NCBI RefSeq assembly: GCF_900115085.1
Contig: NZ_FOVF01000002.1
Coordinates: 124,001 to 188,000, forward strand
Direction: 5' to 3'
From: Dokdonella immobilis
GTDB taxonomy: Bacteria; Pseudomonadota; Gammaproteobacteria; Xanthomonadales; Rhodanobacteraceae
DNA length: 64,000 nucleotides
Shown: positions 1,062 to 53,056 of the stretch, piece by piece
Position numbering within the stretch: the stretch's first letter is position 1
Layout of the letters: each line of letters begins with the position of its first letter
The notes under the pieces: generated by a model
Told to the model about the DNA's origin: nothing
What the model saw: only the letters and a program-made list of their open reading frames with translations
Database searches by the model: none
Translations under genes and position numbers: made by a program

Positions 1062-3923
1062 CTAAGACAGTTCGTCCATGAGTGTCTTTGCCGCTCTCAG
1101 GTCGCCTGTCGCGAAGCCCTCGCGGAAGCGGACGTAGGTAGCCGCCAGACCAGCCCTGGCCTCGGTGGGACGGCCTTGCCGGCACCGGAGCCGGGCGATG
1201 CTCGTGACCGCGCGCAGTTCCCATGAAAGCGCGCGCTGCCGACGGGCATGCGTGAGCGATCGATTGAACAGCGATTCGGCGTCCGCAAGCCGCGGGTCAG
1301 CACCTTGCAATACGATCTCGCCCTTGACGCGCAACAGCTCCGCGACGCACCACAAGTCTTCTCGTCGAGCGCAAAGCTGCAGGGCTTCGTCAATCGCGCG
1401 CAACCCCTGAGCGAACCTTCCAGCCATGGCCAAACCCTCTGCCAACGTGGCCAGGAAGCCGGCGTGGAAGAGAGCGAACCGGACCTGGCGGAGATTGTTC
1501 AGACCATCGGCCAGCCTAGTCAGCCCTGGGTCGAACTCCCCACGCTTGACCTGAACCGCCGCGCTCCAGCATTGCCCAAGAATTTCCCAGGGTACGAGTG
1601 CGGCGCGGTCGGCTTCATCCAATAATTCCACGATCGCTTGTTCGGCGAGCGACCATTCCCCGGTGAACATTGCCAGCGGACACTGAGCCTGGGCGAGCGC
1701 ATCGCATACCGATATTGCGTGTCCGCCGAGACGAGCCTCCCGGACGCAAAGATGGGCTTCTTCCATGGCCTGCTCCGGCGACCCTTCGAGCCACAACATC
1801 TGGGCCAGCATGGCGCGTGCCGCGAGCGGCTGGTTGAATCGGAACCGGATGCTCGTGGAAGACTCGACCGAAGCTGCGTTTCGCCTCAAGGAACTGGCGA
1901 TATGGCGACGTGCTTCTGCCCCATGCCCAAGGCAGTGCAGCGGCACACCGATCAGGCGGTCGCCGAGAGCGCGATCGTAGGGCGACTCAGAGTTTTTGCG
2001 GAACTCGCGCGCCGCGTCCAGCGCCAAACGGTATTCGCCCAGCCCGATGTGGCAGAGCCAGAGGCCCCAAAGCGCTTCCAGTCGAAATTCCTGGTCGGCC
2101 AGGCTGTGGGCAATGTCGAGCGCCTTGGCCCAGGCCGCCGAGGCCTGCGGCGCCAGTCCGATCGTGAAGGTCTGGGACAAACCCAGCGCCGCATAGAGCT
2201 GCATGACGTTCCGGGCATGGAGCGTACCGCTTGCCGTCGCCCCCGCCTTGGCAAGTGCGTGCCCGACCCGACTCCTGCACTCCTCGGTGGAGGAAAGCCG
2301 AAACCACAATGGAATGGCAGCGACGGTCATCGAGATGCCGATGGCTATGTCCCCCGCCGGCGAAAAGGCCCAGTCCAGGGCCAACCGGACATTGTCGATC
2401 TCCGGCCGGTAGCGCCCCAGCCATTCCTCGGGAAGGTGCGATTCCCACTCGGCAAGCGAGCGGGCGAGGAGGTCGCGAAAACATTCTGCGTGCCGCCGCT
2501 GGACGTCCGAGAACTCACTGGTCTCCGCCAGCTTGGCCGACGCGTAGGCGCGTGTCGTATCGAGCAAGCGATAGCGCGCCAGACGCCCACCTGCTTCCAG
2601 GGCTACCAGCGATTTTTCAACCAGATTGCCGAGAAGGTCCGGAATGGTGCTGGCGGAGAGCTGTTTGTCCGCTGCCACGCGGCACGCGGATTCCAGCGTG
2701 AAGCCGCCGGCGAAAACGCCGAGGCGACGAAGCAGGGCCCGCTGTTCTTCCGCCAGCAATGCGTGGCTCCAATCGAGCGTGGCGAGAAGGGTCTGGTGCC
2801 GGGGCAGTGCGGTCCGGCGAGCGCCCACCAATATCCGGAAACGATCACCCAGTCGCTCGGCGACACCGCGCATTCCAAATGCCCCCACGCGTGCCGCCGC
2901 GAGTTCGATTGCCAGTGCAATGCCATCGAGCTGACGACAGATATCGGCCGCGACGGGCGCGTCGCCATCGCTCAACCGGAATCCGTCCATGCTGGAGGCC
3001 ACGCGCTCGACGAAAAGCGCCACCGAGGAGTAGTGCAGCGCCGAGGCGGCCGTCAGCCCGGGCGTCGCGGGCGGTATCTGCAACGGCGATAGGCGATGGA
3101 CGCTCTCACCCTCGGCACGAAGTGGTTCCCGGCTTGTAGCCAGGATGGTCGCGCTCGGCGCGCCCTTGATGATGGCCTCGACCAGTATGGTCGCCGCCTC
3201 GATTACCCTCTCGCAATTGTCGAAAACTAGAAGGATGTGCTTGTCCCGCAATACACTGAGCAGCTCAGCCATCGGATCGTGGGAGGTGAGCGGCAGCCCA
3301 ATCGTTGTCGCCAGCACGCAAGGGAGGAGCGTCGCGTCGGCAATCGGCGCCAGATCCATGAGCCACACACCGTCGCGGTAGGAGGCCAGCAGCGCGGTCG
3401 CGGCTGCCACTGCAACCGTAGTCTTGCCGACCCCTCCGGTCCCGACCACCGTGACCAGACGTTGACGGCGCAGTCGGGCCGCAAGAATGTCCACGACATC
3501 GTCGCGCCCAATAACCGGATTCAGACGCAGTGGAAGATTGTTGGTGCGCACGTCGGTGCCGAATCCCGCATGTCGCGCCTCGGTGCAGGTCGTCGCTGGG
3601 GCGAAACGGTAACCGTGCCCTGGCACGGCAACCACGTATTCGTTGCCATCCCGGCGATCATCCAGCGCCTTGCGCAGCAGCGCCACCTGCACCCGGAGAT
3701 TGGAATCCTCGACTACCCGGTTTGGCCACGCCCTCGCGATCAGCCTGTCCTTTGGCACTGGCTCGCCCGCATGCTCCAGCAAGGCGATGAGAAGGCCGAA
3801 TGCCCGGCTGCCAATCGGGACCCGCCGGCCTTCCTTGAGCAGCAGCTGACGCGCAGGGTACACGCTGAAAGGTCCAAAGGTGATCGCTCGGTCGTCTGGC
3901 TTGGCCATTGCAGATGTCGGCAT
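1062..3923 (-). CDS. OmpR-type DNA-binding / NB-ARC-like ATPase / TPR transcriptional regulator
   Basis: A 953-residue cytosolic regulator. Residues ~12-108 form an OmpR/PhoB-type winged helix (ITFGPFSVYPARQLLLKEG ... GHGYRF). They are followed by a STAND/AAA-like ATPase with Walker A GTGGVGKTT near residue 161 and Walker B LLVFDNCE near 231. The long alpha-helical C-terminal half is typical of TPR repeats. Proteins of this design (COG3903-type predicted ATPase regulators, related to AfsR/SARP regulators) are thought to integrate a ligand or protein signal with ATP binding before activating promoters. The frame extends upstream to 4052, but ATG 3923 has a GGAG six bases ahead and immediately precedes the conserved fold, so it is preferred; ATG 3908 is a second option. 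Target genes are unknown; the downstream quinone reductase is a candidate. Confidence 0.85.
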   Translation of the reverse strand: MPTSAMAKPDDRAITFGPFSVYPARQLLLKEGRRVPIGSRAFGLLIALLEHAGEPVPKDRLIARAWPNRVVEDSNLRVQVALLRKALDDRRDGNEYVVAVPGHGYRFAPATTCTEARHAGFGTDVRTNNLPLRLNPVIGRDDVVDILAARLRRQRLVTVVGTGGVGKTTVAVAAATALLASYRDGVWLMDLAPIADATLLPCVLATTIGLPLTSHDPMAELLSVLRDKHILLVFDNCERVIEAATILVEAIIKGAPSATILATSREPLRAEGESVHRLSPLQIPPATPGLTAASALHYSSVALFVERVASSMDGFRLSDGDAPVAADICRQLDGIALAIELAAARVGAFGMRGVAERLGDRFRILVGARRTALPRHQTLLATLDWSHALLAEEQRALLRRLGVFAGGFTLESACRVAADKQLSASTIPDLLGNLVEKSLVALEAGGRLARYRLLDTTRAYASAKLAETSEFSDVQRRHAECFRDLLARSLAEWESHLPEEWLGRYRPEIDNVRLALDWAFSPAGDIAIGISMTVAAIPLWFRLSSTEECRSRVGHALAKAGATASGTLHARNVMQLYAALGLSQTFTIGLAPQASAAWAKALDIAHSLADQEFRLEALWGLWLCHIGLGEYRLALDAAREFRKNSESPYDRALGDRLIGVPLHCLGHGAEARRHIASSLRRNAASVESSTSIRFRFNQPLAARAMLAQMLWLEGSPEQAMEEAHLCVREARLGGHAISVCDALAQAQCPLAMFTGEWSLAEQAIVELLDEADRAALVPWEILGQCWSAAVQVKRGEFDPGLTRLADGLNNLRQVRFALFHAGFLATLAEGLAMAGRFAQGLRAIDEALQLCARREDLWCVAELLRVKGEIVLQGADPRLADAESLFNRSLTHARRQRALSWELRAVTSIARLRCRQGRPTEARAGLAATYVRFREGFATGDLRAAKTLMDELS

Positions 3924-7678: not shown

Positions 7679-8122
7679 AAAATCCTGATGTCCGTTCTGG
7701 GCAGGAAGCGATCGCGCAACCAACCACGCGCCCAACCCGTCTCGATGGTCGGCCCAGGCCTGCAACATCCTGCTCCTCTCTTCGGTGAGAGGAGTTCCAT
7801 TGCAAACGCGCCCAAGGGGATCTCGGTGCATGGGCCAACCTGGGCTTGATGAGGACGGGCCTGAGTCCGGGCACCTCATCCCGAAGGATGCGTGCGCGCC
7901 ATGGCGTAGAGCCCGCCGGACGCAAATCGATATGCATGTGCTTGGTATCGGCGACGCCGGAGACGGGCGATCTGGACTTTGCCCGGCGGATCCTGGTTTC
8001 GCTGTGCATGCGTGCGAGCGAGCCGAATGTCATCAGCCGGATACCGCCGAGATGCTTGTACGCCGTATGCGTACATTTTCAGCCGGCTTGCGCGCTTCGT
8101 CGGACTGGCCAGAACTTCAAAG
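7679..8122. other. intergenic region, nothing recognised
   Basis: About 440 bases between the MocR gene stop and the 3' end of the intron-containing tRNA. Open frames exist on both strands but show no family pattern or plausible ribosome sites. No T-run terminator is seen at the tRNA 3' end. Confidence 0.4.
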
Positions 8123-8444
8123 TGGTGGGCCCACCAGGACTCGAACCTGGAACCAAGGGATTCGCTTGTTCCGATCGTTTCCGATCGGCGCGGACTATCT
8201 CTTCACCCTTCGCCGAGACGAGTGGGGTGCGGGACGCTCGAGCCTGTGATCAAGGGCGCTGCAGCCCTCAGGTAGTCTCTGCACCTTCCGACGGTGTACC
8301 GCCAGCTTGGCTCAGGGTTGCCACCGGCCACGCAATACGCGCCGCTGAGGTTTCCCTGAATTCATCCCGATCCCGTCCACGCATTACGGCGCGGCGGCAC
8401 CTGTTCGATGAGTCCCCTGCTCTAACCAATTGAGCTATAGGCCC
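8123..8444 (-). tRNA. ileX: tRNA-Ile2 (anticodon CAU) interrupted by a group I intron
   Basis: Exon 1 (8408-8444, 37 nt) starts GGGCCTATAGCTC and ends in the anticodon (GGGGACTCAT). Exon 2 (8123-8162, 40 nt) starts AATCCC and ends GGGCCCACCA with encoded CCA. Joined they fold as a perfect 77-nt cloverleaf: acceptor GGGCCTA/TGGGCCC, D stem GCTC/GAGC, anticodon stem GGGGA/TCCCT, T stem CCAGG/CCTGG. The body resembles the minor isoleucine tRNA (lysidine-modified CAU, TilS substrate, reads AUA) more than elongator or initiator Met. The break is directly after anticodon position 36. As in many relatives the gene follows rpoD. Which CAU tRNA it is should be confirmed by identity elements. Confidence 0.93.
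8163..8407 (-). ncRNA. group I self-splicing intron in tRNA-Ile2(CAU)
   Basis: A 245-nt insertion in the anticodon loop. Group I hallmarks on the minus strand: exon 1 ends CAU, which pairs with GUG of the intron (8398-8400) leaving a U.G wobble at the 5' splice site; the last intron base is G (8163). P3 is TTCAGG with CCTGAG, P4 CTCAG with CTGAG, and P7 GACTA (8273-8277) with TAGTC (8193-8197). A P9 hairpin CCGATCG-GAAA-CGATCGG spans 8171-8188. GAGCCAAGC, AGAGACTA and ATAGTCC blocks match the small Azoarcus tRNA-Ile(CAU) intron, the known IC3-type model ribozyme of ~205 nt, as I remember it. No endonuclease ORF fits. Splicing is predicted, not shown. Confidence 0.92.
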
Positions 8445-8452
8445 GTGCGTGG

Positions 8453-8460
8453 ATTCTATA
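8453..8460 (-). promoter_or_regulatory. -10 element of the tRNA-Ile2 promoter
   Basis: TATAGAAT lies 9 bases upstream of the mature tRNA 5' end, followed by a GC-rich discriminator (CCACGCAC). No good -35 is seen at 16-18 bases. The GC-rich discriminator is typical of stringently controlled stable-RNA promoters. Confidence 0.5.
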
Positions 8461-8572
8461 ACGAAGGTTGCGCGCAACGCGACGATCATTTCGCCTTCCT
8501 GCGTCGGCGTAAACGGGGGCATCTGCCTGGCGTGTGGCCGATTCGCGCCGCGCCGCACTGCGCGCAAGAACG

Positions 8573-8595
8573 AAAAAGGCCGCAAGCGCGGCCGT
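8573..8595 (-). terminator. rho-independent terminator of rpoD
   Basis: On the minus strand a GGCCGC-GCTT-GCGGCC hairpin (8578-8593) is followed by TTTTTC, 25-50 bases past the rpoD stop codon. Confidence 0.8.
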
Positions 8596-8619
8596 TTTCG
8601 CCGTATCCGTCCCCCGCGC

Positions 8620-10491
<1,872 letters not shown>

Positions 10492-10603
10492 GTAGGTTCT
10501 GCTGTGCCTTAAACAAAGACTCGGAAGTATAGGCGGCCCGTCAAGGGCGACCCAAGTTATTGAAAATATTGAGTTGATCGTCCGACTGCCCAACAACGAA
10601 CGG

Positions 10604-42426: not shown

Positions 42427-42498
42427 GATTCAGATCCGCAATTGCGTTGCCCGGGCTTTCGTATGCTCGGCGAATCTCTAACGCAATGGGAGCGGATC

Positions 42499-45400
42499 AT
42501 GGAGCGGGAACGTCAGGGACGGCATGCGCCGTTCGCATTCGTCTGCGCAATGTTGATGACGCTGGGTGCGGGAGTCTCGTCCCTGTATCCGCAACGCGAG
42601 GCCCTTGCTTCGGGCGTGACGACCTTGCCGCCGAACGTCACTCTCGATGCCGCGCCGAACCACGATGCCTCAACAGGCACGATGGCCGATCAGGCTGGAA
42701 CGGATGGTGGCGCGTCCACTTACCGCGTTCCGATCGTCGTGCCGCCCGGTCGTGCCGGCATGCAGCCCTCCCTGGCCCTGGTCTACAACAGTCGCAGTGG
42801 CGACGGCGTGGCTGGACTGGGTTGGTCGATTTCCGGTCTCAGTTCGATCCACCGTTGCCCACAGACGCCCGAACAGGACGGGCAAACACGCGGTGTCTCC
42901 TACACCCTGAATGACCGTCTATGCCTGGACGGCCAGCGCCTGGTCAAAGTCGGTGGCAGCTATGGTCAGCTCAATGCGACCTACAAGACCGAAATCGACA
43001 GTTACGCGCGCATCACGCAACTGGGCGGCAATATCGACGGTGCCTCTGCGTACTTCAAGGTTGAGCAGAAGGATGGCCGCATCCTGTATTACGGCACGAC
43101 AACCAACTCCCGAGTAGCGCCGAGCGGAACGAACAACAAACCATTGAGCTGGCTGGTCGACAAGATCGAGGATCGGATTGGCAACTTCCAGAGCTACAGC
43201 TACGACGTCAGCAATGGCTATGGCGAGGTCCTGCTCGATACGGTGACCTATACGGGCCTCAATGGTGTTGCGGGCAATCGCACGGTCACGTTCCACTACA
43301 AGACGCGCACGGACGCCGCCAGTGGTGCCAAGGACGTCGCTTCGAGTGCATTAGCAGGCGGTATGTCGATGCAAACCCAAGCGCTCGATTGGATCAGGAC
43401 AGCTGTCGGAGGCGTGACCGTTCTTCGATACGAACCGAACTACGCAGTGTCGAAATACAGCGGCCGACTCCTGCTGACATCCATGAAGGAGTGTGCGGGT
43501 GAGACCGCCACCTGTCATCCTCCATCGCGCTTTGTCTACAACGACGAATGGCTCGACCCAGCATCTGCTAGCGAACCGACATTTCAGCTGAAGTCTTTGT
43601 CGGCGTTAGGGCTGCCGTCGCCACCCACGCCGACTCCCGGTCTCGATGGCCAGGCCCACAGCGATGTCTATCGCGTCCGCGTTGGCGGCGACTACGACGG
43701 AGACGGTACACGAGAAACAGTGGTGAGCATTACCAATGGAGTGGCCGGTAGCGCGTATCTAGCGCAATTTACGGCCGACAGGCGCGTTCACAATCCGTTA
43801 CTCATTCCATCGGACTACAATCTCCTGCAAGCCCTGGATGCCGACATAGACGGAAGCGGCCGTTCGACACTGGTCGGCACGATGCAGACGGGACTCAACG
43901 TCGCGTTCGGCATGTGGGACATCGAGCGGTTTCCGCGGGGGCTCCCTCCAGGTCAGAATCCGTTTGTTGCGATTCAATCGGATATTGCACTGTCTTCCGC
44001 TTTTCCCATTGGTCACATCCATAATGTGTATCCGGGCGACTTCGACGGCGATGGACATACCGACATTCTCGTCGTCCGTCCTGAACCGGCATGCGGTTCC
44101 ATCGGCCCCGGCACGATAAACGGCCTCTCCTTCTACAAAAATCAAATCACTGGCGCGCTTAGCTCGACCGACACGGCGCATTTTGGTGGGAGGAATTTTC
44201 TCACCTGTTTACCTCGTATTGTTTCCGGCGGTGTCTACGTCGAGGCGGTCGTCGATCATATTGGGGATTTCAATGGCGACGGGCTTGCGGACGTTTTTCT
44301 GACTTATGCGGGGGGGGGTGAAGAGAAAGGGGACTTTGCGGGAATAGCGATTACTCAGCTAGGCGCCAATTCCGCGAATATTGGTTCGTGTGCACAGATC
44401 GGCCTTGCCAGCGATGATTGTACGTGGGGCAACGGCTATGTATCACGCTGGATGGATGTCAATGCCGATGGCCTTGAGGATCTGGTGCTCGCCAAGCCGG
44501 TCGCGGTCCAGGGGAAATGGCATATCCGTCTGAACAACGGCAATGGTCAACTCGGTGTCGATATCGACACCGGCAGCAGTGCCGGATTGCAGACCTACAC
44601 CACTGGCGGGTTAGTGCCGGTAAATTTTCGATATGCCGATCGACTTCCGTCGATGGACGTCGACAGCGATGGAAGGGCGGACATTCTCATTCCATCGCAA
44701 AAGCCCGGCAAGGCGGCGTTTGCGCTGAGAATGTGCACGCTAAAAAAAGTTCGACAAATTGGCACTGAAGGTTGTCCGACGCCTGGGAGTGCGCCACCGT
44801 CGAGTGGAGGAGAAGATCCAGAAGTGGGGGAGGTCTGCGCGGCGTACGCGTGTCCGCCCTATCCGGAAAGCCTCGAAACCGATTCCGGCGATCCCGATGA
44901 CGATCCGGATTTTCTCGACGACATGCCGCAAAACCCTCGTCAGCCCGGCTATAGATGGTCGTGGTTTGATCCACAAGGTCAACCCGTTCCCGCATTCAAT
45001 TCCTACTCAAGCAGCAGCATTCACGGCGGCACATTCGACGACAACAGTGTCTACCACTTGGCGCAGGTCAAGTTCGTGCAGACAGGGCCTGCGTCATTTA
45101 CCGCCAGTGTCACCGAAACGCCTCTGGTTTCCCGATTGTCCGACTACTACGGTGGCAACGACGATCTGTTCGGCGACGGGTTGCAGGATCTCACGACGTC
45201 TGTCGGTTGCTTGGATATACAGGTATTTCATGGGGATCCCAATAGTCCCGTTTGGATTCATCAGCTATGCTCTCCAGTCGATGATCCAGACTTTGGTCCC
45301 GCGACTATTCCGGACGGAACACCTGTCTCAGCGCTTGCAGCTCAGTTGGTGCTGTACGCCAATGTCAATCAGGGAATCCCCGCGCCCGGAGGATCACCCG

Positions 45401-48400
45401 ACGCTACTACCATTCCCGGCTCGCCGCGACCCTCGGCGCCGACCCTGAACGCCACCGGCGGCATCAATCTCTCTTTGCCGATACCGCATCTACCGGGTCT
45501 GATGGATCGTGCCGTAGGTGGGGTCGGTGATTTTGCGGTTTGGGGCTACTACCCGCTGTCGGTTCCGGCCAAAGATCGATACAACAAGATATTCTATACG
45601 GTGCTTCCTGATCAGTCGCAGGATCCCAACGGATATGCGGATGAAAGGCACTACTACTTCCAGAGTTCAATGCCGACTGTTTACGGTATGGCGCAGAACA
45701 ACGGACTGGGAAGCGCTAGCGGATATCGTAGCGCCACCTATACGTATCGAGAGGCGATGTATCACCACCTTGGCCGTGGCTTTCAGGGCTTTCGCTCGAT
45801 CAGCTCCACAATCGATGACCCAAGCGATCGCGCGCTGCGCACGACAACGACCTTTCATCAGAAGTTTCCGTTGACGGGACGGATTGAGGAGGTAGATACA
45901 GAAGTCCCCTCAAGCGGCCGGCTGCTCAAACACGAAACCGACACCTGGATATGCGATCTCGCGAGAGGATCATGTCCGCAAGGCGGCGACATTCCGGGCT
46001 TGCCATCCTCCACGAACGGTGGAGTCGTATTTGCGCCGCTATTGGACAAGCAACTTGTTGAGAATTTCGATCTTGTTTCGGGGGCTCGCTACAACTATTC
46101 CGAGACAGTCAACGCTGAGGGCGATTCTTCATCTGGATGGGATCTCTATGGAAACCTCAAGAATCAAGTCATAACAAGCGTCGAAGAAGGAGCCAACGCT
46201 GTCTTCAGCCAGCACGGAGTTGTGAATGAAAATGTATACGCAAATGATCTTGGAAGCTGGTGGCTGGGCCAGCTTTCAAGCAGCACGGTAACGACATCAC
46301 TGAGCTATTCGAGCAATCATCCGCTGCCTAACGGGGTGAATTTGCCCCCTGCCCGCAAGATAAGAACCGAGTACAGCTGGAACCCTGATCGTACCCCGCT
46401 TTCAACCAAGGTCCATGACGAACTGGAGTCGACGTGGGTTGAAACCACCTACGACTATAGTGAGACCAATGCGAAGGGCCTTCCCAATGCGGTCACTATC
46501 GATGCTTCCAATCTCGAAGCTTCTCGAAGAACCACGTTTGACTATACAAAGGATGGAACAACAAGTGCCGGAGCGGGCATGGCCGCCATGGATGGATACT
46601 TCGTCCTCAATACGAAGAACCCCGCGGGGCATTCAACAAGGACGACACACGAACTTGGATACGGCCAAGTCCTGGACACGGTGGATCCCAATCAACTGAC
46701 GACGAGCAACGAATACGACGGATTTGGTCGGTTGAAGAGCATGAGCTTCATGGATGCCAACAACAACGTCATGCTGCCGCCCGTCAACATCGGATATTTC
46801 CCATGTAGCGGTGGATACGACAGTAGTTGTGGGAACGGTTTCGGTGACAGCAACACGGACAATCAACATTACGCCGCCTGGCGTGTGGTACGTGTGCAAA
46901 GCGGGCATCCGACAGCGGTGGATTGGTTCGATCCGTTGGGCCGCACCATCAAACATGTCGAACGTGGTTTCAGTGACGCAGATTTTGTCGAGACTTTTAC
47001 CGAGTATGAAGCGATGGGAACGGTGTATCAGCAGAGCGCGCCGTTCTACCGCCTCGACGGAAACGGATCGCTTACCGCATGGACATATGATCCGTTGGGT
47101 CGACCGCTCACGAAGCGCGTCTATGTAGGGGACCTCGGTGCCTCATCTGGCGACGTATTGACGACCTACGCCTATGAGGGAAACAAGACCTCGATCAACG
47201 TCCGCGTGGTCGGGTTTACCGGCAGCTGCAATAACCTGAACAACCAGTGCATGAACATGAGCCGGACCTACGACATGCTGGGGCGGCTGGCCCAGACTGT
47301 CCAGGGAAATGGCACGAACCCCACCTATTCCGCGGCCGACTACTGGTATGACGGAACGGGAAATCCTATTGCTGCCAGAGATGCCGGGGGATCGGTCATC
47401 AAGGGTATGTACAATGATTTCGGTCAGCGTACCGACCTCTATGATCCCGATGCTGGGCATCGGCACTTCATCTATGACGGCTTGGGCGAGTTGGTAACGC
47501 AGACCGATGCCCGCGGTGTATCGACAACGCAGCGATATGATTCGCTGGGTCGAGTCTTTGAAAGGACGGCCACCGACAGTAGTGCGGCTTCTCCAGTTCC
47601 CAAGGTCATTTTCGATGAATGGTCATATGACCCGAAGGGATTCAGTGGGGGCAAGGGCCTGCTCGCCTATTCGCAACGTCGAACCGGTGCCAGCCTGGCG
47701 ACTCTGGGATCGTCGCCAATCTGGAAAGAATCGTACCTGTACGAAACAAATACCAAGCGCCCCTCTACCGTCACCACGGAGTTTGAAGGCCAAAATCCAC
47801 TATTGACCGGTTATGCATATGACGCCGCAGGGCATGTTGACAGGGTGGACTATCCAAGTGGCTTAACAGTAGAAAGGGCCTATACAGGCTACGGATTGCT
47901 CAATAGGCTCAGCAACTTCATCGATGGCACGGAATACTGGAGGGGGGAGTCACAAGACGCCTGGGGCAACACCACCAGAGAAACCTATCTCGACAGTATC
48001 AACGGCGTCCACTCAAGCTATCCATCTACCGGACAGGCCGCGCTCAAGACCTGGACTCAGGACTCTGCTCTGCTAAATCAGCTTGACTACAAGTACGACA
48101 GCTTTGGCAACCTGAAATTCCAGGGCGCCGTGCTCAGTGGCGTCGCTGCTAGTGAATCCTATGTTTACGACGGACTGCAGCGGCTGACCCAGACCACGCG
48201 AATCGGCGTGCCAGGCAATCCGGCTCCAATTAATTACAAGTACAAGCCCAATGGCAATCTGGAAGCCAAAAGCGACTTCAGTTCATTTAGCGACAACGCA
48301 TATACCTACGATGCCGGTACCTGCGGCCCGCACGCTGTTACAGGCGTGGCGAATAGCGGCATAACGCGGACGTACACATGCGACGCGAACGGCAATGTGA

Positions 48401-51400
48401 TCGGTGGATCTGAGATCACCTTTGCAAACTACGATTTCAACAATCAGCCCTGGAAGGTAAGCCGCTCAGGCGCAGGGACAGCGCTGTTTGCGTATACGCC
48501 AAACGGTGATCTGTTCAGGACCATTGCCGGTGATCAAAGCACCTGGATTGGGCCGGAAGGCTACGAGACAAGCGTAGTAGCGGGCGTTACGGTTTATCGT
48601 CATGAGTTGGGGCCCGTTCTCGTGCTGCGAGAAAACGGAGCTGATACCGCCAAGGCAGTCTTACGGGATCGCTTGGGCTCGCAAGTCATGCTGGTGAGCA
48701 GGAGCGGTGGCGGTGGAGGCGGACCACCAGCGTTGCCTGCTCCAACGAGTAATGCCAATCCCAGCCTGGATGGCCATTACACGATCAGCTGGCAGACGGT
48801 CACTGGCGCCACGCGCTATGAATTGTTCGAGCAAGTTGGTGATGGAAAAGAAATGCTCGTATATGCGGGGGCAGACACGCACTGGTCGCCAGCGGCACCG
48901 CGACCCGTGGGCACTTACAACTACCGCTGGCACGCATGTGATGTTGCCTGCGGCGAATTCAGTGGAATTCTCATTCAGAAGGTCGCTCCACTTCCCGCCA
49001 GCATAACGCTGAGCCCAAACCCCAGCACCGGGACCTATTCGGTGAGTTGGACGCATCCAGACGGCGCCCAAACGTTTCGTTTGGAGGAGCAAGTCGTCAC
49101 CGGCGCGAGGACTTCGCCATGGGTAGTCTTGCTTGACCAGTCCTCCGCCACTCATTGGGATGCGCTCGGAAAGGCGGCAGGGAAATACAACTACCGTGTG
49201 CTTGCCTGCTCGGATGTCTGCGGTGGCTTCAGCACCGTTGTTACGGAAACCGTTAACTCCGCCGTCAACGTGCCACAGCCTCCGGCCTGGCTGACTGCAA
49301 CCTTTGAAGCGGGGTCCACGACAAGCTATCGAGTAAATTGGGCCTCTTCAGCCTCTGCCAGCTACTACCTGCTTGAGGAAAAAATCGGATTGGGCAACTT
49401 TACTCCTGTCAATGGTGTCACTGGCACTTTCCATCTGTTTTCCAATAGACCACCAGGGACGTACACCTACCGGGCAAGGGCGTGCAATTCTATCGGGTGC
49501 AGTGTCGGTTACAGTCCGACCGCGACAATAACTGTTGATGCGCTTGCCGTCTGCAATCCGCAGAACCTTGTGATCGCGCCGGACAATAGCCTCGACGGAA
49601 ACTTCCGGTTGACATGGGATCCAGTCCCAGGAACCGGCATTCGCTACAGCGTAGAAGAATCAACGACTGCCAGCACGCCGTATCAGTGGCACGTAGTGTC
49701 CGATCAGACAGCAACGCTGTTTGATGTCACCGGAAAACCGGACGGTTCGTACCCCTATCGTGTGAGGGCCTACAGTACAACTTGTAGCGGCTACAGTGCT
49801 GTCTATATTGAGACGGTGCGTTTGGTGCCCGATGTCCCGACGATGCACCCGCCCAGCCCGACAAGCAGCAACGGGCAGTTCGAGCTTTCCTGGAGCCCTT
49901 CACCCACCGCCACCTACTACAGGCTGTCCGAGCAGGTCAACGGCGTTTGGTCGGAAATTGGCGATGACAACGGGCAGGGCATCCATGGAACATCTGTGGT
50001 TCTGCATCGCGGTGATGGGGATTACCACTACAAGGTGCGCGGATGCTTTATCGGATCCCAGGTCCGGTGCAGTGGCGAGTCAAATGTTGTCGCGGAGCAT
50101 GTCTCGGGAAGCGGGCTCCCGATCATGCCTCCTACGATCACCAGTTCCCTGGGGGACAACTGCGGGCATGTAAGTGCAGGACATCCGGCGTCCTACACCA
50201 TCAGCTGGTCGCTCACGAACGGAACGGAGTACGAAGTCCTTGAGAGCAACGCTGATGTCCCCGGGCCCAGCACTTACTTCACGACCGCGGACCACATGGC
50301 ATTCACCCATGGGCTGCCCGGAAGCCCTCCAGGAGGAACCAGGCCGGATTCCACGACATACGACTATTTTGTGCGCGCGTGTATCGGAACCGGCAGCAAC
50401 AGACCCTGTTCAATCTGGAAGGGCGGCGCCCATGCCTGCGTCGGCGACGGCCTGAACCGCCCGGGCGCCGAAAACTCGGCGACGGCCTATGACGCTTTTG
50501 GCAAGGTGCGAAACGGCGACTACTCGGACAAGGCCAACGGCACCTTGAATCTGCTGCCCGATACGGTTCGCGGGTTCACCGGGCACCAGCATGTCGATGA
50601 CGTGCGCCTGATTCATATGAACGGGCGGGTTTACGACTATCAGCTGGGGCGGTTTTTGAGTGTGGATCCGGTGATTCAGTTTCCGACGAATACGCAGTCG
50701 ATGAATCCGTATTCGTACATTATGAATAACCCGTTGTCGGGGAGGGATCCGACGGGGTATCAGTCTTGCTCAACCGGGACGCACATTGAAGGAAGCAGTG
50801 GGCCAGATTGCGACAGCATTGGAGTTGCGCAGATTCAAGTTGGCCAGAGGAGTGAAGGTCCCAAACAGAAGAGCAGTGGGAGTCAATCACAGTCTGTGAA
50901 AGTGGCTCCAGTGAGCGCGGCGGATGCCACTTCTGCCACCAAGCAGCCAGCGTTGGACAATCCAGGCGCACCAACCAAGCCACAAGATCATGGCAACCAA
51001 GATGGAATGCTTGGCGCAGTGGTAGTCACCGCAACGGCAGCCGTCAGATTTGGCGAAATGGTCAGTCCGTTCCCTTGGGGGTTCAGTGGTACTAGCGGGC
51101 GGATTCCCTGGGCAGGAAGGGGTGGCCTAGCCGGTATCGCTACCGCGCTGATACTTTATTCACCAAACGCAGGTGATCCAAACGAGTGTATGTGTGGTTG
51201 CGGAAATACGTGTGGCGCGCTAACTGGGGCTGCTGGATTGGAGGGTTTACGTGGTTCTACTATGTCGAATGAGGCTGGGGAGAATGCTGATTCAGGAGAA
51301 ACCGCTCCACCTGTGCCAGGCGCAAAGCCGGGACGAGAAACGAGAGGTCGAACTACTCAATGGGAAGCGCCGGGCGGGATGACCGAGGCCGATCGAGACT

Positions 51401-51570
51401 TTGACGGAAAACAACCTACCGGAGTAAGGACCCTTCCCAACGGTGGCCGGGTCGGAAAATTGCCCGACGGTTCGACAATTGTAGTGAGGCCAAACAGTAG
51501 CGACGGTAGGCCTACTCTGGAGATTCAGCACGGGAAGACCAGTGACAAAGTCAGATACGGCAACAAGTGA
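42499..51570 (+). CDS. giant exported SpvB/FG-GAP/RHS polymorphic toxin with inserted FN3-like array
   Basis: A protein of ~3,023 residues. Order: N-terminal export signal (~10-35, FAFVCAMLMTLGAGVSS). SpvB-type domain (from ~74, TYRVPIVVPPGRAGMQPSLA). FG-GAP/VCBS calcium-type repeats (~394-735: GDYDGDGTRE, DGDGHTDILVV, GDFNGDGLADVFL, DVDSDGRADILI). YD/RHS repeats (~1400-1700: YDGFGRLKS, YDPLGRPLTKR, YDSLGRVFER). RHS core split by six FN3-like units (~2074-2656). Core end YDYQLGRFLSVDP ... SGRDPTGYQ near 2750. Variable C-terminus to 3023. ATG 42499 has GGAG ahead. TcdB/SpvB-RHS shells encapsulate and release a C-terminal toxin. GC is visibly lower than in the flanks. Confidence 0.9.
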   Translation: MERERQGRHAPFAFVCAMLMTLGAGVSSLYPQREALASGVTTLPPNVTLDAAPNHDASTGTMADQAGTDGGASTYRVPIVVPPGRAGMQPSLALVYNSRSGDGVAGLGWSISGLSSIHRCPQTPEQDGQTRGVSYTLNDRLCLDGQRLVKVGGSYGQLNATYKTEIDSYARITQLGGNIDGASAYFKVEQKDGRILYYGTTTNSRVAPSGTNNKPLSWLVDKIEDRIGNFQSYSYDVSNGYGEVLLDTVTYTGLNGVAGNRTVTFHYKTRTDAASGAKDVASSALAGGMSMQTQALDWIRTAVGGVTVLRYEPNYAVSKYSGRLLLTSMKECAGETATCHPPSRFVYNDEWLDPASASEPTFQLKSLSALGLPSPPTPTPGLDGQAHSDVYRVRVGGDYDGDGTRETVVSITNGVAGSAYLAQFTADRRVHNPLLIPSDYNLLQALDADIDGSGRSTLVGTMQTGLNVAFGMWDIERFPRGLPPGQNPFVAIQSDIALSSAFPIGHIHNVYPGDFDGDGHTDILVVRPEPACGSIGPGTINGLSFYKNQITGALSSTDTAHFGGRNFLTCLPRIVSGGVYVEAVVDHIGDFNGDGLADVFLTYAGGGEEKGDFAGIAITQLGANSANIGSCAQIGLASDDCTWGNGYVSRWMDVNADGLEDLVLAKPVAVQGKWHIRLNNGNGQLGVDIDTGSSAGLQTYTTGGLVPVNFRYADRLPSMDVDSDGRADILIPSQKPGKAAFALRMCTLKKVRQIGTEGCPTPGSAPPSSGGEDPEVGEVCAAYACPPYPESLETDSGDPDDDPDFLDDMPQNPRQPGYRWSWFDPQGQPVPAFNSYSSSSIHGGTFDDNSVYHLAQVKFVQTGPASFTASVTETPLVSRLSDYYGGNDDLFGDGLQDLTTSVGCLDIQVFHGDPNSPVWIHQLCSPVDDPDFGPATIPDGTPVSALAAQLVLYANVNQGIPAPGGSPDATTIPGSPRPSAPTLNATGGINLSLPIPHLPGLMDRAVGGVGDFAVWGYYPLSVPAKDRYNKIFYTVLPDQSQDPNGYADERHYYFQSSMPTVYGMAQNNGLGSASGYRSATYTYREAMYHHLGRGFQGFRSISSTIDDPSDRALRTTTTFHQKFPLTGRIEEVDTEVPSSGRLLKHETDTWICDLARGSCPQGGDIPGLPSSTNGGVVFAPLLDKQLVENFDLVSGARYNYSETVNAEGDSSSGWDLYGNLKNQVITSVEEGANAVFSQHGVVNENVYANDLGSWWLGQLSSSTVTTSLSYSSNHPLPNGVNLPPARKIRTEYSWNPDRTPLSTKVHDELESTWVETTYDYSETNAKGLPNAVTIDASNLEASRRTTFDYTKDGTTSAGAGMAAMDGYFVLNTKNPAGHSTRTTHELGYGQVLDTVDPNQLTTSNEYDGFGRLKSMSFMDANNNVMLPPVNIGYFPCSGGYDSSCGNGFGDSNTDNQHYAAWRVVRVQSGHPTAVDWFDPLGRTIKHVERGFSDADFVETFTEYEAMGTVYQQSAPFYRLDGNGSLTAWTYDPLGRPLTKRVYVGDLGASSGDVLTTYAYEGNKTSINVRVVGFTGSCNNLNNQCMNMSRTYDMLGRLAQTVQGNGTNPTYSAADYWYDGTGNPIAARDAGGSVIKGMYNDFGQRTDLYDPDAGHRHFIYDGLGELVTQTDARGVSTTQRYDSLGRVFERTATDSSAASPVPKVIFDEWSYDPKGFSGGKGLLAYSQRRTGASLATLGSSPIWKESYLYETNTKRPSTVTTEFEGQNPLLTGYAYDAAGHVDRVDYPSGLTVERAYTGYGLLNRLSNFIDGTEYWRGESQDAWGNTTRETYLDSINGVHSSYPSTGQAALKTWTQDSALLNQLDYKYDSFGNLKFQGAVLSGVAASESYVYDGLQRLTQTTRIGVPGNPAPINYKYKPNGNLEAKSDFSSFSDNAYTYDAGTCGPHAVTGVANSGITRTYTCDANGNVIGGSEITFANYDFNNQPWKVSRSGAGTALFAYTPNGDLFRTIAGDQSTWIGPEGYETSVVAGVTVYRHELGPVLVLRENGADTAKAVLRDRLGSQVMLVSRSGGGGGGPPALPAPTSNANPSLDGHYTISWQTVTGATRYELFEQVGDGKEMLVYAGADTHWSPAAPRPVGTYNYRWHACDVACGEFSGILIQKVAPLPASITLSPNPSTGTYSVSWTHPDGAQTFRLEEQVVTGARTSPWVVLLDQSSATHWDALGKAAGKYNYRVLACSDVCGGFSTVVTETVNSAVNVPQPPAWLTATFEAGSTTSYRVNWASSASASYYLLEEKIGLGNFTPVNGVTGTFHLFSNRPPGTYTYRARACNSIGCSVGYSPTATITVDALAVCNPQNLVIAPDNSLDGNFRLTWDPVPGTGIRYSVEESTTASTPYQWHVVSDQTATLFDVTGKPDGSYPYRVRAYSTTCSGYSAVYIETVRLVPDVPTMHPPSPTSSNGQFELSWSPSPTATYYRLSEQVNGVWSEIGDDNGQGIHGTSVVLHRGDGDYHYKVRGCFIGSQVRCSGESNVVAEHVSGSGLPIMPPTITSSLGDNCGHVSAGHPASYTISWSLTNGTEYEVLESNADVPGPSTYFTTADHMAFTHGLPGSPPGGTRPDSTTYDYFVRACIGTGSNRPCSIWKGGAHACVGDGLNRPGAENSATAYDAFGKVRNGDYSDKANGTLNLLPDTVRGFTGHQHVDDVRLIHMNGRVYDYQLGRFLSVDPVIQFPTNTQSMNPYSYIMNNPLSGRDPTGYQSCSTGTHIEGSSGPDCDSIGVAQIQVGQRSEGPKQKSSGSQSQSVKVAPVSAADATSATKQPALDNPGAPTKPQDHGNQDGMLGAVVVTATAAVRFGEMVSPFPWGFSGTSGRIPWAGRGGLAGIATALILYSPNAGDPNECMCGCGNTCGALTGAAGLEGLRGSTMSNEAGENADSGETAPPVPGAKPGRETRGRTTQWEAPGGMTEADRDFDGKQPTGVRTLPNGGRVGKLPDGSTIVVRPNSSDGRPTLEIQHGKTSDKVRYGNK
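48720..50465 (+). repeat. six fibronectin-III-like repeats inside the RHS core
   Basis: Six units of ~90-100 residues with the pattern 'P-x-SxNGxYxVSW...YxLEEQ...GTYxYRVRAC...CSGYSxxxxETV'. Examples: DGHYTISWQTVTGATRYELF, TYSVSWTHPDGAQTFRLEEQ, SYRVNWASSASASYYLLEEK, NFRLTWDPVPGTGIRYSVEE, QFELSWSPSPTATYYRLSEQ and SYTISWSLTNGTEYEVLES. A G6 linker (SRSGGGGGGPPALP) opens the array, which sits between LRDRLGSQVML and TAYDAFGKV, normally contiguous in RHS cores. Confidence 0.8.
51340..51570 (+). other. putative C-terminal toxin domain of the RHS protein
   Basis: After the RHS-core terminus and a variable linker, the last ~75 residues form a compact module: RGRTTQWEAPGGMTEADRDF, TGVRTLPNGGRVGKLPDGST, IVVRPNSSDGRPTLEIQHGK and KVRYGNK. 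A similar 'LPDGxxxxVRPxSxDGRPTLEI' ending recurs, as far as I recall, in other polymorphic-toxin C-termini; basic and acidic residues suggest a small nuclease. Activity is inference. Confidence 0.5.
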
Positions 51571-52120: not shown

Positions 52121-53056
52121 CGATGAGAAAGGGGTCACGATGAGAAAGGGGTCAGGTCTTGAATCTTGAATCGCGCCGTTTTTCGGCGTAGGTTCGGATG
52201 CATGGCCCGGCCCCTTCGCATTGAGTTCGCTGGCGCGCTGTACCACGTCACCTCGCGGGGTGACCGACGCGAGGACATCTATCTCGACGATGTCGAACGG
52301 ATGATGTTTCTCGAGGTGCTGGGCGAGGTCTGCGAGCGCTTTCAGTGGGCGTGTCATGCCTACTGCCTGATGAGCAATCACTACCATTTGTTGATCGAAA
52401 CCCGCGATTCGACGCTGGCCAAGGGCATGCGCCACTTGAACGGAGTTTTTACGCAGCGCTCCAACCGCAGGCACCGTCGCGTCGGACACGTGTTTCAAGG
52501 GCGCTACAAGGCCATCCTGATCCAGAAGGAAGCCTATCTGCTGGAGGTGGCTCGCTACGTCGTCCTGAATCCGGTTCGCGCCGGCATGGTCCGATCCGTC
52601 AACGATTGGCCCTGGAGCAGTTATCGCGCGACGGCTGGGTGGGTGGATGTTCCGCCGTGGCTCAGCATCGATTGGCTGCTGTCGGCATTCGGAACCCGAC
52701 GCAAGGCAGCGAGGGAGGCTTATCGTCGGTTTGTGAGCGAGGGACGTGGCGCGGGTTCGATCTGGGACGATCTGAAGCGGCAGATGTATCTCGGCGACGA
52801 GGCCTTCGTCGACCGGATGATTGCGACGCTGGAGGGCGATGCTTTACTGGATGAGGTTCCTACGACCCAGCATCGGCCGCCGCCCATGTCCTTGCAGCAG
52901 TATGCCAAGGCCCACCGCGATCGGGATCACGCTATTGCGGCCGCCTATGCAAGCGGTGGCTACAGCATGAAGACGATCGGTGACCACTTCGGTCTCCACT
53001 ATTCGATGGTCAGCCGAGTTATCAAGAAGAGCCGCGATTCAAGATTCAAGACCTGA
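52121..53056 (+). mobile_element. RAYT (REP-associated tyrosine transposase) element with 24-bp inverted repeats
   Basis: A perfect 24-bp inverted repeat bounds the gene: TCAGGTCTTGAATCTTGAAT + CGCG at 52152-52175 and its complement at 53033-53056, the right copy ending exactly with the transposase TGA. A 17-bp direct repeat CGATGAGAAAGGGGTCA stands twice in tandem just upstream (52121-52137 and 52138-52154). Confidence 0.8.
52202..53056 (+). CDS. REP-associated tyrosine transposase (IS200/Y1 family)
   Basis: A 284-residue HUH single-strand transposase. Typical start MARPLRIEFAGALYHVTSRG, the HUH metal motif in LMSNHYHLLIET, GHVFQGRYKAILI, and the catalytic tyrosine in LLEVARYVVLNPVRAGMV with WPWSSYRA. 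A C-terminal HTH-like region (YSMKTIGDHFGLHYSMVSRV) follows; its degenerate homolog is at 40865. RAYTs are usually single-copy domesticated transposases that move or maintain REP sequences. ATG 52202 matches the family start. All catalytic residues look intact. Confidence 0.93.
   Translation: MARPLRIEFAGALYHVTSRGDRREDIYLDDVERMMFLEVLGEVCERFQWACHAYCLMSNHYHLLIETRDSTLAKGMRHLNGVFTQRSNRRHRRVGHVFQGRYKAILIQKEAYLLEVARYVVLNPVRAGMVRSVNDWPWSSYRATAGWVDVPPWLSIDWLLSAFGTRRKAAREAYRRFVSEGRGAGSIWDDLKRQMYLGDEAFVDRMIATLEGDALLDEVPTTQHRPPPMSLQQYAKAHRDRDHAIAAAYASGGYSMKTIGDHFGLHYSMVSRVIKKSRDSRFKT

Follow-up and report, generated by a model that had tools for sequence, protein, structure and literature searches.

The split tRNA-Ile2(CAU) gene and its surroundings

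The window, the 64,000-nt stretch of Dokdonella immobilis DNA analyzed here, carries on its minus strand a tRNA-Ile2(CAU) gene (8444-8123) split by a 245-nt group I intron (8163..8407) between tRNA positions 36 and 37. The 5' exon (8408..8444, 37 nt, tRNA positions 1-36) ends with the anticodon CAU, and the 3' exon (8123..8162, 40 nt, positions 37-76) includes an encoded CCA; the limits of the intron rest on the RF00028 match, the exon boundaries, and an alignment of 36 introns. The original prediction of a group I intron in this anticodon loop, made from the sequence alone, was exact in its coordinates: the Rfam scan that it proposed gave 62.9 bits (E 1.4e-13) for the intron over the full RF00028 model, whose gathering score is 50. 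At E <= 0.001, this is the only RF00028 match in the genome (4.64 Mb, 78 contigs). The insert directly follows the anticodon of an Ile2-type CAU tRNA, placing it among the tRNA-Ile2(CAU) introns of site 36/37.

Once joined, the exons form the predicted 77-nt cloverleaf in ARAGORN, which assigns the label tRNA-Met from the CAT anticodon. The best match of the joined exons in E. coli is an annotated tRNA-Ile with CAT (83% over all 77 nt), upholding the predicted Ile2 identity. The gene had also been expected to escape standard callers, and it does so in searches of the window: ARAGORN reported no tRNA there, and RF00005 gave no match at or above its gathering score. Judged by their sequence, the window exons show no decay; the window gene and the intron-bearing gene of another genome of the genus (G005) have 37/37 and 36/37 aligned exon bases in common. 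A search for a homing endonuclease gene in the 245-nt intron returned no Pfam match at E 0.001 for any of the four frames (98-195 aa) that overlap it.

Directly upstream of the split gene lies rpoD (8620..10494, minus strand; NF004208, 883 bits). Among the loci listed, 47 related ones have a long rpoD match, and in 44 of these rpoD likewise precedes the tRNA on its strand; L166, L087, and L127 depart from this arrangement, and the rpoD matches of the latter two are only 43-44% identical and may be paralogues. A weak terminator-like hairpin (8578..8593, minus strand) stands between rpoD and the tRNA, with one found as compared with 0.5 expected in shuffled sequence, and a search of 8050-8640 for a sigma-70 consensus promoter gave none. 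Farther along the window, on the plus strand, a 3042-aa protein (42442-51570) matches the SpvB N-terminal domain and RHS repeats, with a TcdB-region match below the cut-off; just after it lies an IS200-like Y1 transposase (52166-53056, plus strand; PF01797).

Secondary structure of the intron

Helices P1-P9 (66 pairs) were placed by hand on the window intron, using the Rfam alignment as a guide, and the pairs were counted over 36 introns (alignment A1): that of the window and those of 35 of the 102 insert-bearing loci described below. They come from the top 38 blastn hits of the window, leaving out L137, L141, and L185, so the covariation figures apply to that similar set. All 66 pairs are standard in the window intron itself. 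Over the 36 introns, standard pairs fill 97.1% of cells; the corresponding figures are 88.4% after shuffling and 33-43% after sliding. Both-side changes occur in 25 of the 66 pairs, and the covariation score of 0.271 compares with 0.108 for shuffled alignments.

The internal guide GUG (8398..8400), invariant in 36/36 introns, pairs with the exon CAU (8410-8408) and leaves a U.G wobble at the 5' splice site. P2 (8373..8397) carries a GNRA-like GUAA loop and is paired in 89.6% of cells, with both-side changes in eight of its nine pairs. The strands of P3 (8363..8369 and 8230..8236) are paired in 99.6% of cells over the 36 introns, with five of seven pairs never varying; P4 (8359-8354 with 8317-8312, the whole spanning 8312..8359) encloses P5, and these are paired in 100% and 96.5% of cells, respectively. 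The P6/P6a hairpin (8283..8311) is paired throughout (100% of cells), and five of seven P6a pairs change on both sides. The two strands of P7 (8273..8277 and 8193..8197), by homology the putative guanosine-binding helix, are invariant in 36/36. P8 (8205..8228) is paired in 96.5% of cells in its outer part and 90.7% in its inner part, while P9 (8171..8188), capped by a GAAA tetraloop (8181-8178), is paired in 93.9%, with both-side changes in five of seven pairs. The intron ends in a guanosine (8163), and a G precedes the 3' exon in 36/36.

Pairing frequencies of 96.5-100% (36 rows) are found in P3, P4, P5, P6, P7, and outer P8, and the covarying helices are P2, P6a, inner P8, and P9. Since P1, P7, and the outer helix of the insertion described below are invariant, they fit the structure but add no covariation support. 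The above-threshold RF00028 match, the pseudoknotted P3-P7 core with P4-P6 and P8, the U.G pair at the splice site, and the terminal G together characterize a group I intron; the elements named in the original prediction (the P1 wobble of CAU with GUG, P3, P4, P7, a GAAA-capped P9, and the terminal G) were all found. RNAalifold, deriving a structure of its own, recovers most of the hand-placed helices. It omits P7, which forms a pseudoknot that the program cannot draw, as well as three outer P2 pairs and inner P8, and it shifts the short outer P6. It also adds the anticodon stem and a covarying P9.0-like helix at the 3' end of the intron.

Between the 5' strand of P7 and the 3' strand of P3 lie 36 nt (8237..8272) that form a two-part hairpin (8272-8243), with an outer CCTG/CAGG helix invariant in A1 and an inner helix in which two of five pairs are changed on both sides (8 and 11 cells, A1). 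The original prediction had placed the extra length of the intron mostly in P8; this was wrong, as by comparison with the short intron class it resides in this insertion instead. Helices in this position are known as P7.1 and P7.2 in subgroup IA, and the domain resembles these. A regular expression for CCTG...CAGG identified it in 80 of 104 introns (the 102 loci, the window, and G005). The 24 introns without a match comprise nine with no insertion (203-212 nt long), 12 with a different outer helix, paired by eye (GCGG/CCGC, CTGG/CCAG, GGGTG/CACCC, and similar), two (L081, L155) with the same start that are longer than the expression permitted, and one 667-nt intron from Hymenobacter. Subgroup IC3 is not known to have a helical domain between P7 and P3. 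Because of its 36-nt hairpin insertion, the window intron is not filed as IC3 here, and it is predicted to work like an IC3 intron.

AUA decoding in the host genome

All 45 RF00005 matches of the 78-contig genome were read with ARAGORN. Two other tRNAs with a CAT anticodon were identified, typed from their sequences as elongator Met and initiator Met; among the 45, there is neither a second Ile2(CAU) nor an Ile(UAU)/TAT tRNA. Searching the genome with the joined exons returned six matches: the two halves of the split gene at 100%, and four at 75-86% over part of the tRNA. A second intact tRNA-Ile2(CAU) elsewhere in the genome, which the original prediction suggested looking for, was found neither by the joined-exon search nor among the 45 tRNA matches; such a gene may conceivably sit in an assembly gap, despite a stated completeness of 100%.

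The genome encodes TilS (TilS_N domain, 164.5 bits; cut-off 93.6), an enzyme called essential in the title of a reference cited in the tRNAscan-SE 2.0 paper (PMC8450103). AUA itself is very rare, with three occurrences in 6175 codons, stops included, from 11 long ORFs of the window; searches identified just two of these ORFs, rpoD and rho. Given that TilS is present and that no other AUA-reading tRNA was found, decoding of AUA should depend on the split gene and its splicing.

In the proposed mechanism, the precursor would fold so that the guide GUG pairs with the exon CAU; P7 would then bind an exogenous guanosine that cuts after U36, and the freed 5' exon would attack after the terminal G of the intron, joining the exons into tRNA-Ile2. 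TilS would subsequently convert C34 of the joined tRNA to lysidine, allowing AUA to be read. We infer transcription, splicing, and lysidine formation from the intact exons and core, the covarying peripheral helices, the splice-site features, the conservation of the rpoD side, the lack of another AUA tRNA among those found, and the presence of TilS. On these grounds, it is very likely that a self-splicing group I intron interrupts tRNA-Ile2(CAU) and that its splicing would restore an AUA-reading tRNA.

The rarity of AUA, together with the retention of an intron-free gene in close relatives, could also be expected if the intron were decayed and non-splicing and the tRNA gene dead, with AUA read by another tRNA. 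However, no other tRNA for this codon was found, and both exons and the core are intact, with every one of the 66 pairs standard; this explanation is therefore rejected as extremely improbable. Slimmer still is the chance that the tRNA is an elongator Met rather than Ile2. The ARAGORN label would point that way, though it derives from the anticodon, and the genome holds separate elongator-like and initiator-like Met tRNAs, while the closest E. coli counterpart of the joined exons is a tRNA-Ile with CAT.

Under the self-splicing interpretation, the sole tRNA-Ile2 gene found would depend on a ribozyme that has persisted next to rpoD and lacks an endonuclease, while in close relatives the gene is bare; this juxtaposition makes gain, loss, and the cost of a self-splicing intron testable within one genus. 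More broadly, introns passed over by simple tRNA searches would account for the AUA tRNA that many Gamma- and Betaproteobacteria seem to lack.

Distribution, descent, and related introns

When a species-level collection of genomes was scanned for a 5' exon followed by a base other than A, at least 119 loci were recovered; in 102 of them, an insert of 203-667 nt precedes the 3' exon. Another 11 have an intron-like start and probably run beyond the end of the sequence (L096, L097, L116, L147, L149, L151, L172, L178, L183, L188, L197); L158 has no insert, and no 3' exon was obtained for L080, L085, L113, L140, or L162. The 102 listed loci are labeled as 65 Gammaproteobacteria, 17 Betaproteobacteria, 15 Pseudomonadota without a class, one rankless, and four from other phyla, and with the site occupied so widely in both classes, reading the window intron as an Azoarcus intron in the wrong class is too narrow. 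Named hosts among the matches listed include Dokdonella, Rhodanobacter, Dyella, Lysobacter, Luteimonas, Algiphilus, Thiohalobacter, Variovorax, Rugamonas, Limnohabitans, and Azonexus. Not every MAG label can be trusted: an Akkermansia locus (L088) clusters with Limnohabitans (L138), and an Actinomycetes locus (L130) with gammaproteobacteria. In Hymenobacter coccineus (L122:6828-7494, minus strand), the 36/37 site of tRNA-Ile2 holds a 667-nt insert, far above the other lengths.

Within the host's own family, the tRNA pattern matched in 182 of 233 genomes. By hand count, 37 of the 147 listed among these show an intron-type, non-AAT continuation and 110 are intact, with both states occurring inside eight genera; with the exception of the window genome (G000) and G005, where the whole intron was considered, the 37 were classified by the three bases that follow the anticodon. 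The anticodon stem is GGGGA in all 37 intron-type genes of the listed genomes and GGGGA, GAGGA, or GCGGA in the intact ones; the shared GGGGA stem may reflect target preference, co-conversion, or shared descent.

Among ten genomes of the genus, the 36/37 intron is found in the window genome and G005. Five of the nine others (G002, G004, G006, G007, G009) have an intact, intron-free gene, demonstrating the empty site, and two of these, G002 and G009, are the closest to the window genome by RpoD identity (97% and 96%). G001 and G003 carry a different intron, at site 33/34, so that one genus holds all three states of tRNA-Ile2; G008 is uninformative, as neither rpoD nor this tRNA was found there. 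Roughly 1 kb downstream of the intron-bearing gene of G005 is the displaced 3' half of an intron-free tRNA-Ile2 (L032:417-464, minus strand), with a MazE/PemK-like pair (PF04014, PF02452) in the interval, which extends to L032:1456. This displaced half may record an intron-free allele replaced by an intron-bearing one. In G007, a tandem array of truncated intron-free tRNA-Ile2 copies (L051:1501-1971, minus strand) adjoins the intact gene.

A quick tree of 116 introns (L122 and G005 left out; 53 of 113 inner branches open) groups the window intron with those of L163, L139, Rhodanobacter fulvus (L093), and a Rhodanobacteraceae locus (L180) with support of 91. This group nests in a starred set of 14 rows; apart from the window intron itself, 12 of 13 carry a Lysobacterales label. 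The window intron thus stands among those of Dokdonella, Rhodanobacter, Dyella, and Lysobacter, apart from a short betaproteobacterial and viral class; the tree splits the insertion class from the short class and its viral relatives, with support of 88 and 90, neither starred. The nearest intron among the matches listed, identical to that of G005, belongs to a locus labeled Dokdonella sp. (L163; 91% to the window), which is also the nearest by RpoD. These data uphold the predicted Xanthomonadales-like context, as Lysobacterales. RpoD was compared for the 47 loci with a match of at least 470 aa (L095 left out); over 48 sequences, intron and RpoD distances are correlated (Pearson 0.67, Spearman 0.59), with 0 of 2000 permutations as high.

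The original prediction regarded a betaproteobacterial type of intron as oddly placed in a gammaproteobacterium, a view not borne out by its nesting within Lysobacterales introns. Its patchy presence within genus and family, and the related introns in viral tRNA genes, would be in keeping with a recent horizontal transfer of an Azoarcus-type intron from betaproteobacteria into this lineage. However, the window intron shares with the Lysobacterales introns around it a P7/P3 insertion, unlike the short class, and its distances to relatives follow those of RpoD to a degree that none of the permutations reached; such a transfer is accordingly very unlikely. The sequences appear to be best fit by mainly vertical descent with repeated loss, or by loss and regain; these counts do not separate gain from loss. 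Against purely vertical descent, introns of Lysobacter and Luteimonas granuli, from another family, fall inside the same starred set. Among plasmid and phage records, two and 77, respectively, match the window locus; the rows listed are tRNA-sized or short intron pieces, and no plasmid or annotated phage record covers 80% of the locus.

The tRNA-Ile(CAU) intron of Azoarcus sp. BH72 was reportedly described as a group I intron of subgroup IC3 by Reinhold-Hurek and Shub in 1992 and by Tanner and Cech in 1996. It is about 205 nt long, is not known to have a helical insertion between P7 and P3, and presumably belongs to the short class of this analysis. It has the tRNA, insertion site, CAU/GUG P1, core layout, and GNRA loops on P2 and P9 in common with the window intron, which differs in its 245-nt length and P7/P3 insertion. 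The introns of Dokdonella (L163), Rhodanobacter (L093, L193), and Dyella (L099, L105, L119, L157, L192) have the site and insertion domain of the window intron and 9 to 18% sequence difference from it by blastn; rpoD lies upstream in all except L093, whose available sequence does not include rpoD.

Passages of three papers mention or cite the Azoarcus intron (PMC3984707, PMC4033280, PMC12373953). The tRNAscan-SE 2.0 paper, in the part cited here, reports 36 genomes whose fMet or Ile2 gene was missed through group I introns, and names Acidovorax and Burkholderia for Ile2 (PMC8450103). As described there, those introns, like that of the window, are group I introns in Ile2 spotted through a seemingly missing gene, while their hosts, unlike ours, are betaproteobacteria (PMC8450103). 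Group I introns in cyanobacterial tRNA-Leu(UAA) and in tRNA-fMet also interrupt anticodon loops, in different tRNAs (passages of PMC4033280, PMC8450103), and a passage of a 2014 review lists such tRNA introns for cyanobacteria, alphaproteobacteria, and betaproteobacteria (PMC4033280). A literature search, with subscription papers mostly outside it, returned no report of such introns in Lysobacterales, at site 33/34, or in phage tRNA genes. Group I introns in tRNA-Ile2 are already known; the gammaproteobacterial spread and the P7/P3 insertion domain are additions that were not found in print.

The introns at site 33/34, between tRNA positions 33 and 34 of tRNA-Ile2, have inserts of 242 and 245 nt in G001 (L057:1535-1776) and G003 (L058), with a group I-like core; cmscan with E up to 1 gave no RF00028 hit in either locus. 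They occur in five more genomes of two further families (G239, G264, G604, G620, G638); besides L057 and L058, the loci with this split are L211, L213, L229, L230, and L231. The 33/34 pattern was present in 2/233 genomes of the host's family, 3/369 in its class (one of which, L212, is not a tRNA), and 4/119 in the family of G239. The seven introns are alignable, with a change at the P7 position from GACUC/GAGUC to GACUG/CAGUC; judging from the alignment, their invariant GGGUUGC could serve as a guide for the exon GACU. This class is possibly the most novel element of the analysis. A group I intron also occurs in the tRNA-Leu(UAA) of G002 (L033, ~1460-1700, minus strand; RF00028 39.2 bits, below the gathering score). 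In the tree, the Leu intron and the 33/34 class each have a long branch, and the program cautions that such branches may be joined to one another, leaving their position unsettled.

It is conceivable, if somewhat less than an even prospect, that separate ribozyme lineages have repeatedly hit the anticodon loop of tRNA-Ile2: a short one in betaproteobacteria and viral contigs; a large, mainly gammaproteobacterial one with a P7.1/P7.2-like domain, including the window intron; and the 33/34 class, which escaped the Rfam model in both loci to which it was applied. In this scenario, the introns may travel on the tRNA genes of phages, and AUA decoding may be subject to a checkpoint at the splicing step.

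A 2014 review states, in the passage cited, that phage introns seen until then were all in protein genes (PMC3984707). Thirteen viral contigs from IMG/VR (L216-L228) contain CAU-anticodon tRNA genes matching the 36/37 pattern, and eight of them (nine with the doubtful L223) have a P7-like core and then a 3' exon no more than 500 nt away; two of the eight, L216 and L219, resemble each other. An Rfam scan of eight viral contigs placed RF00028 above threshold at the site in five (L217, L221, L222, L224, L227) and not in L216, L218, or L220. Two of the viral loci, searched in annotated phage records, gave partial intron matches only. Of these contigs, L219 has a terminase gene, and phage-type NAD genes are found on L227.
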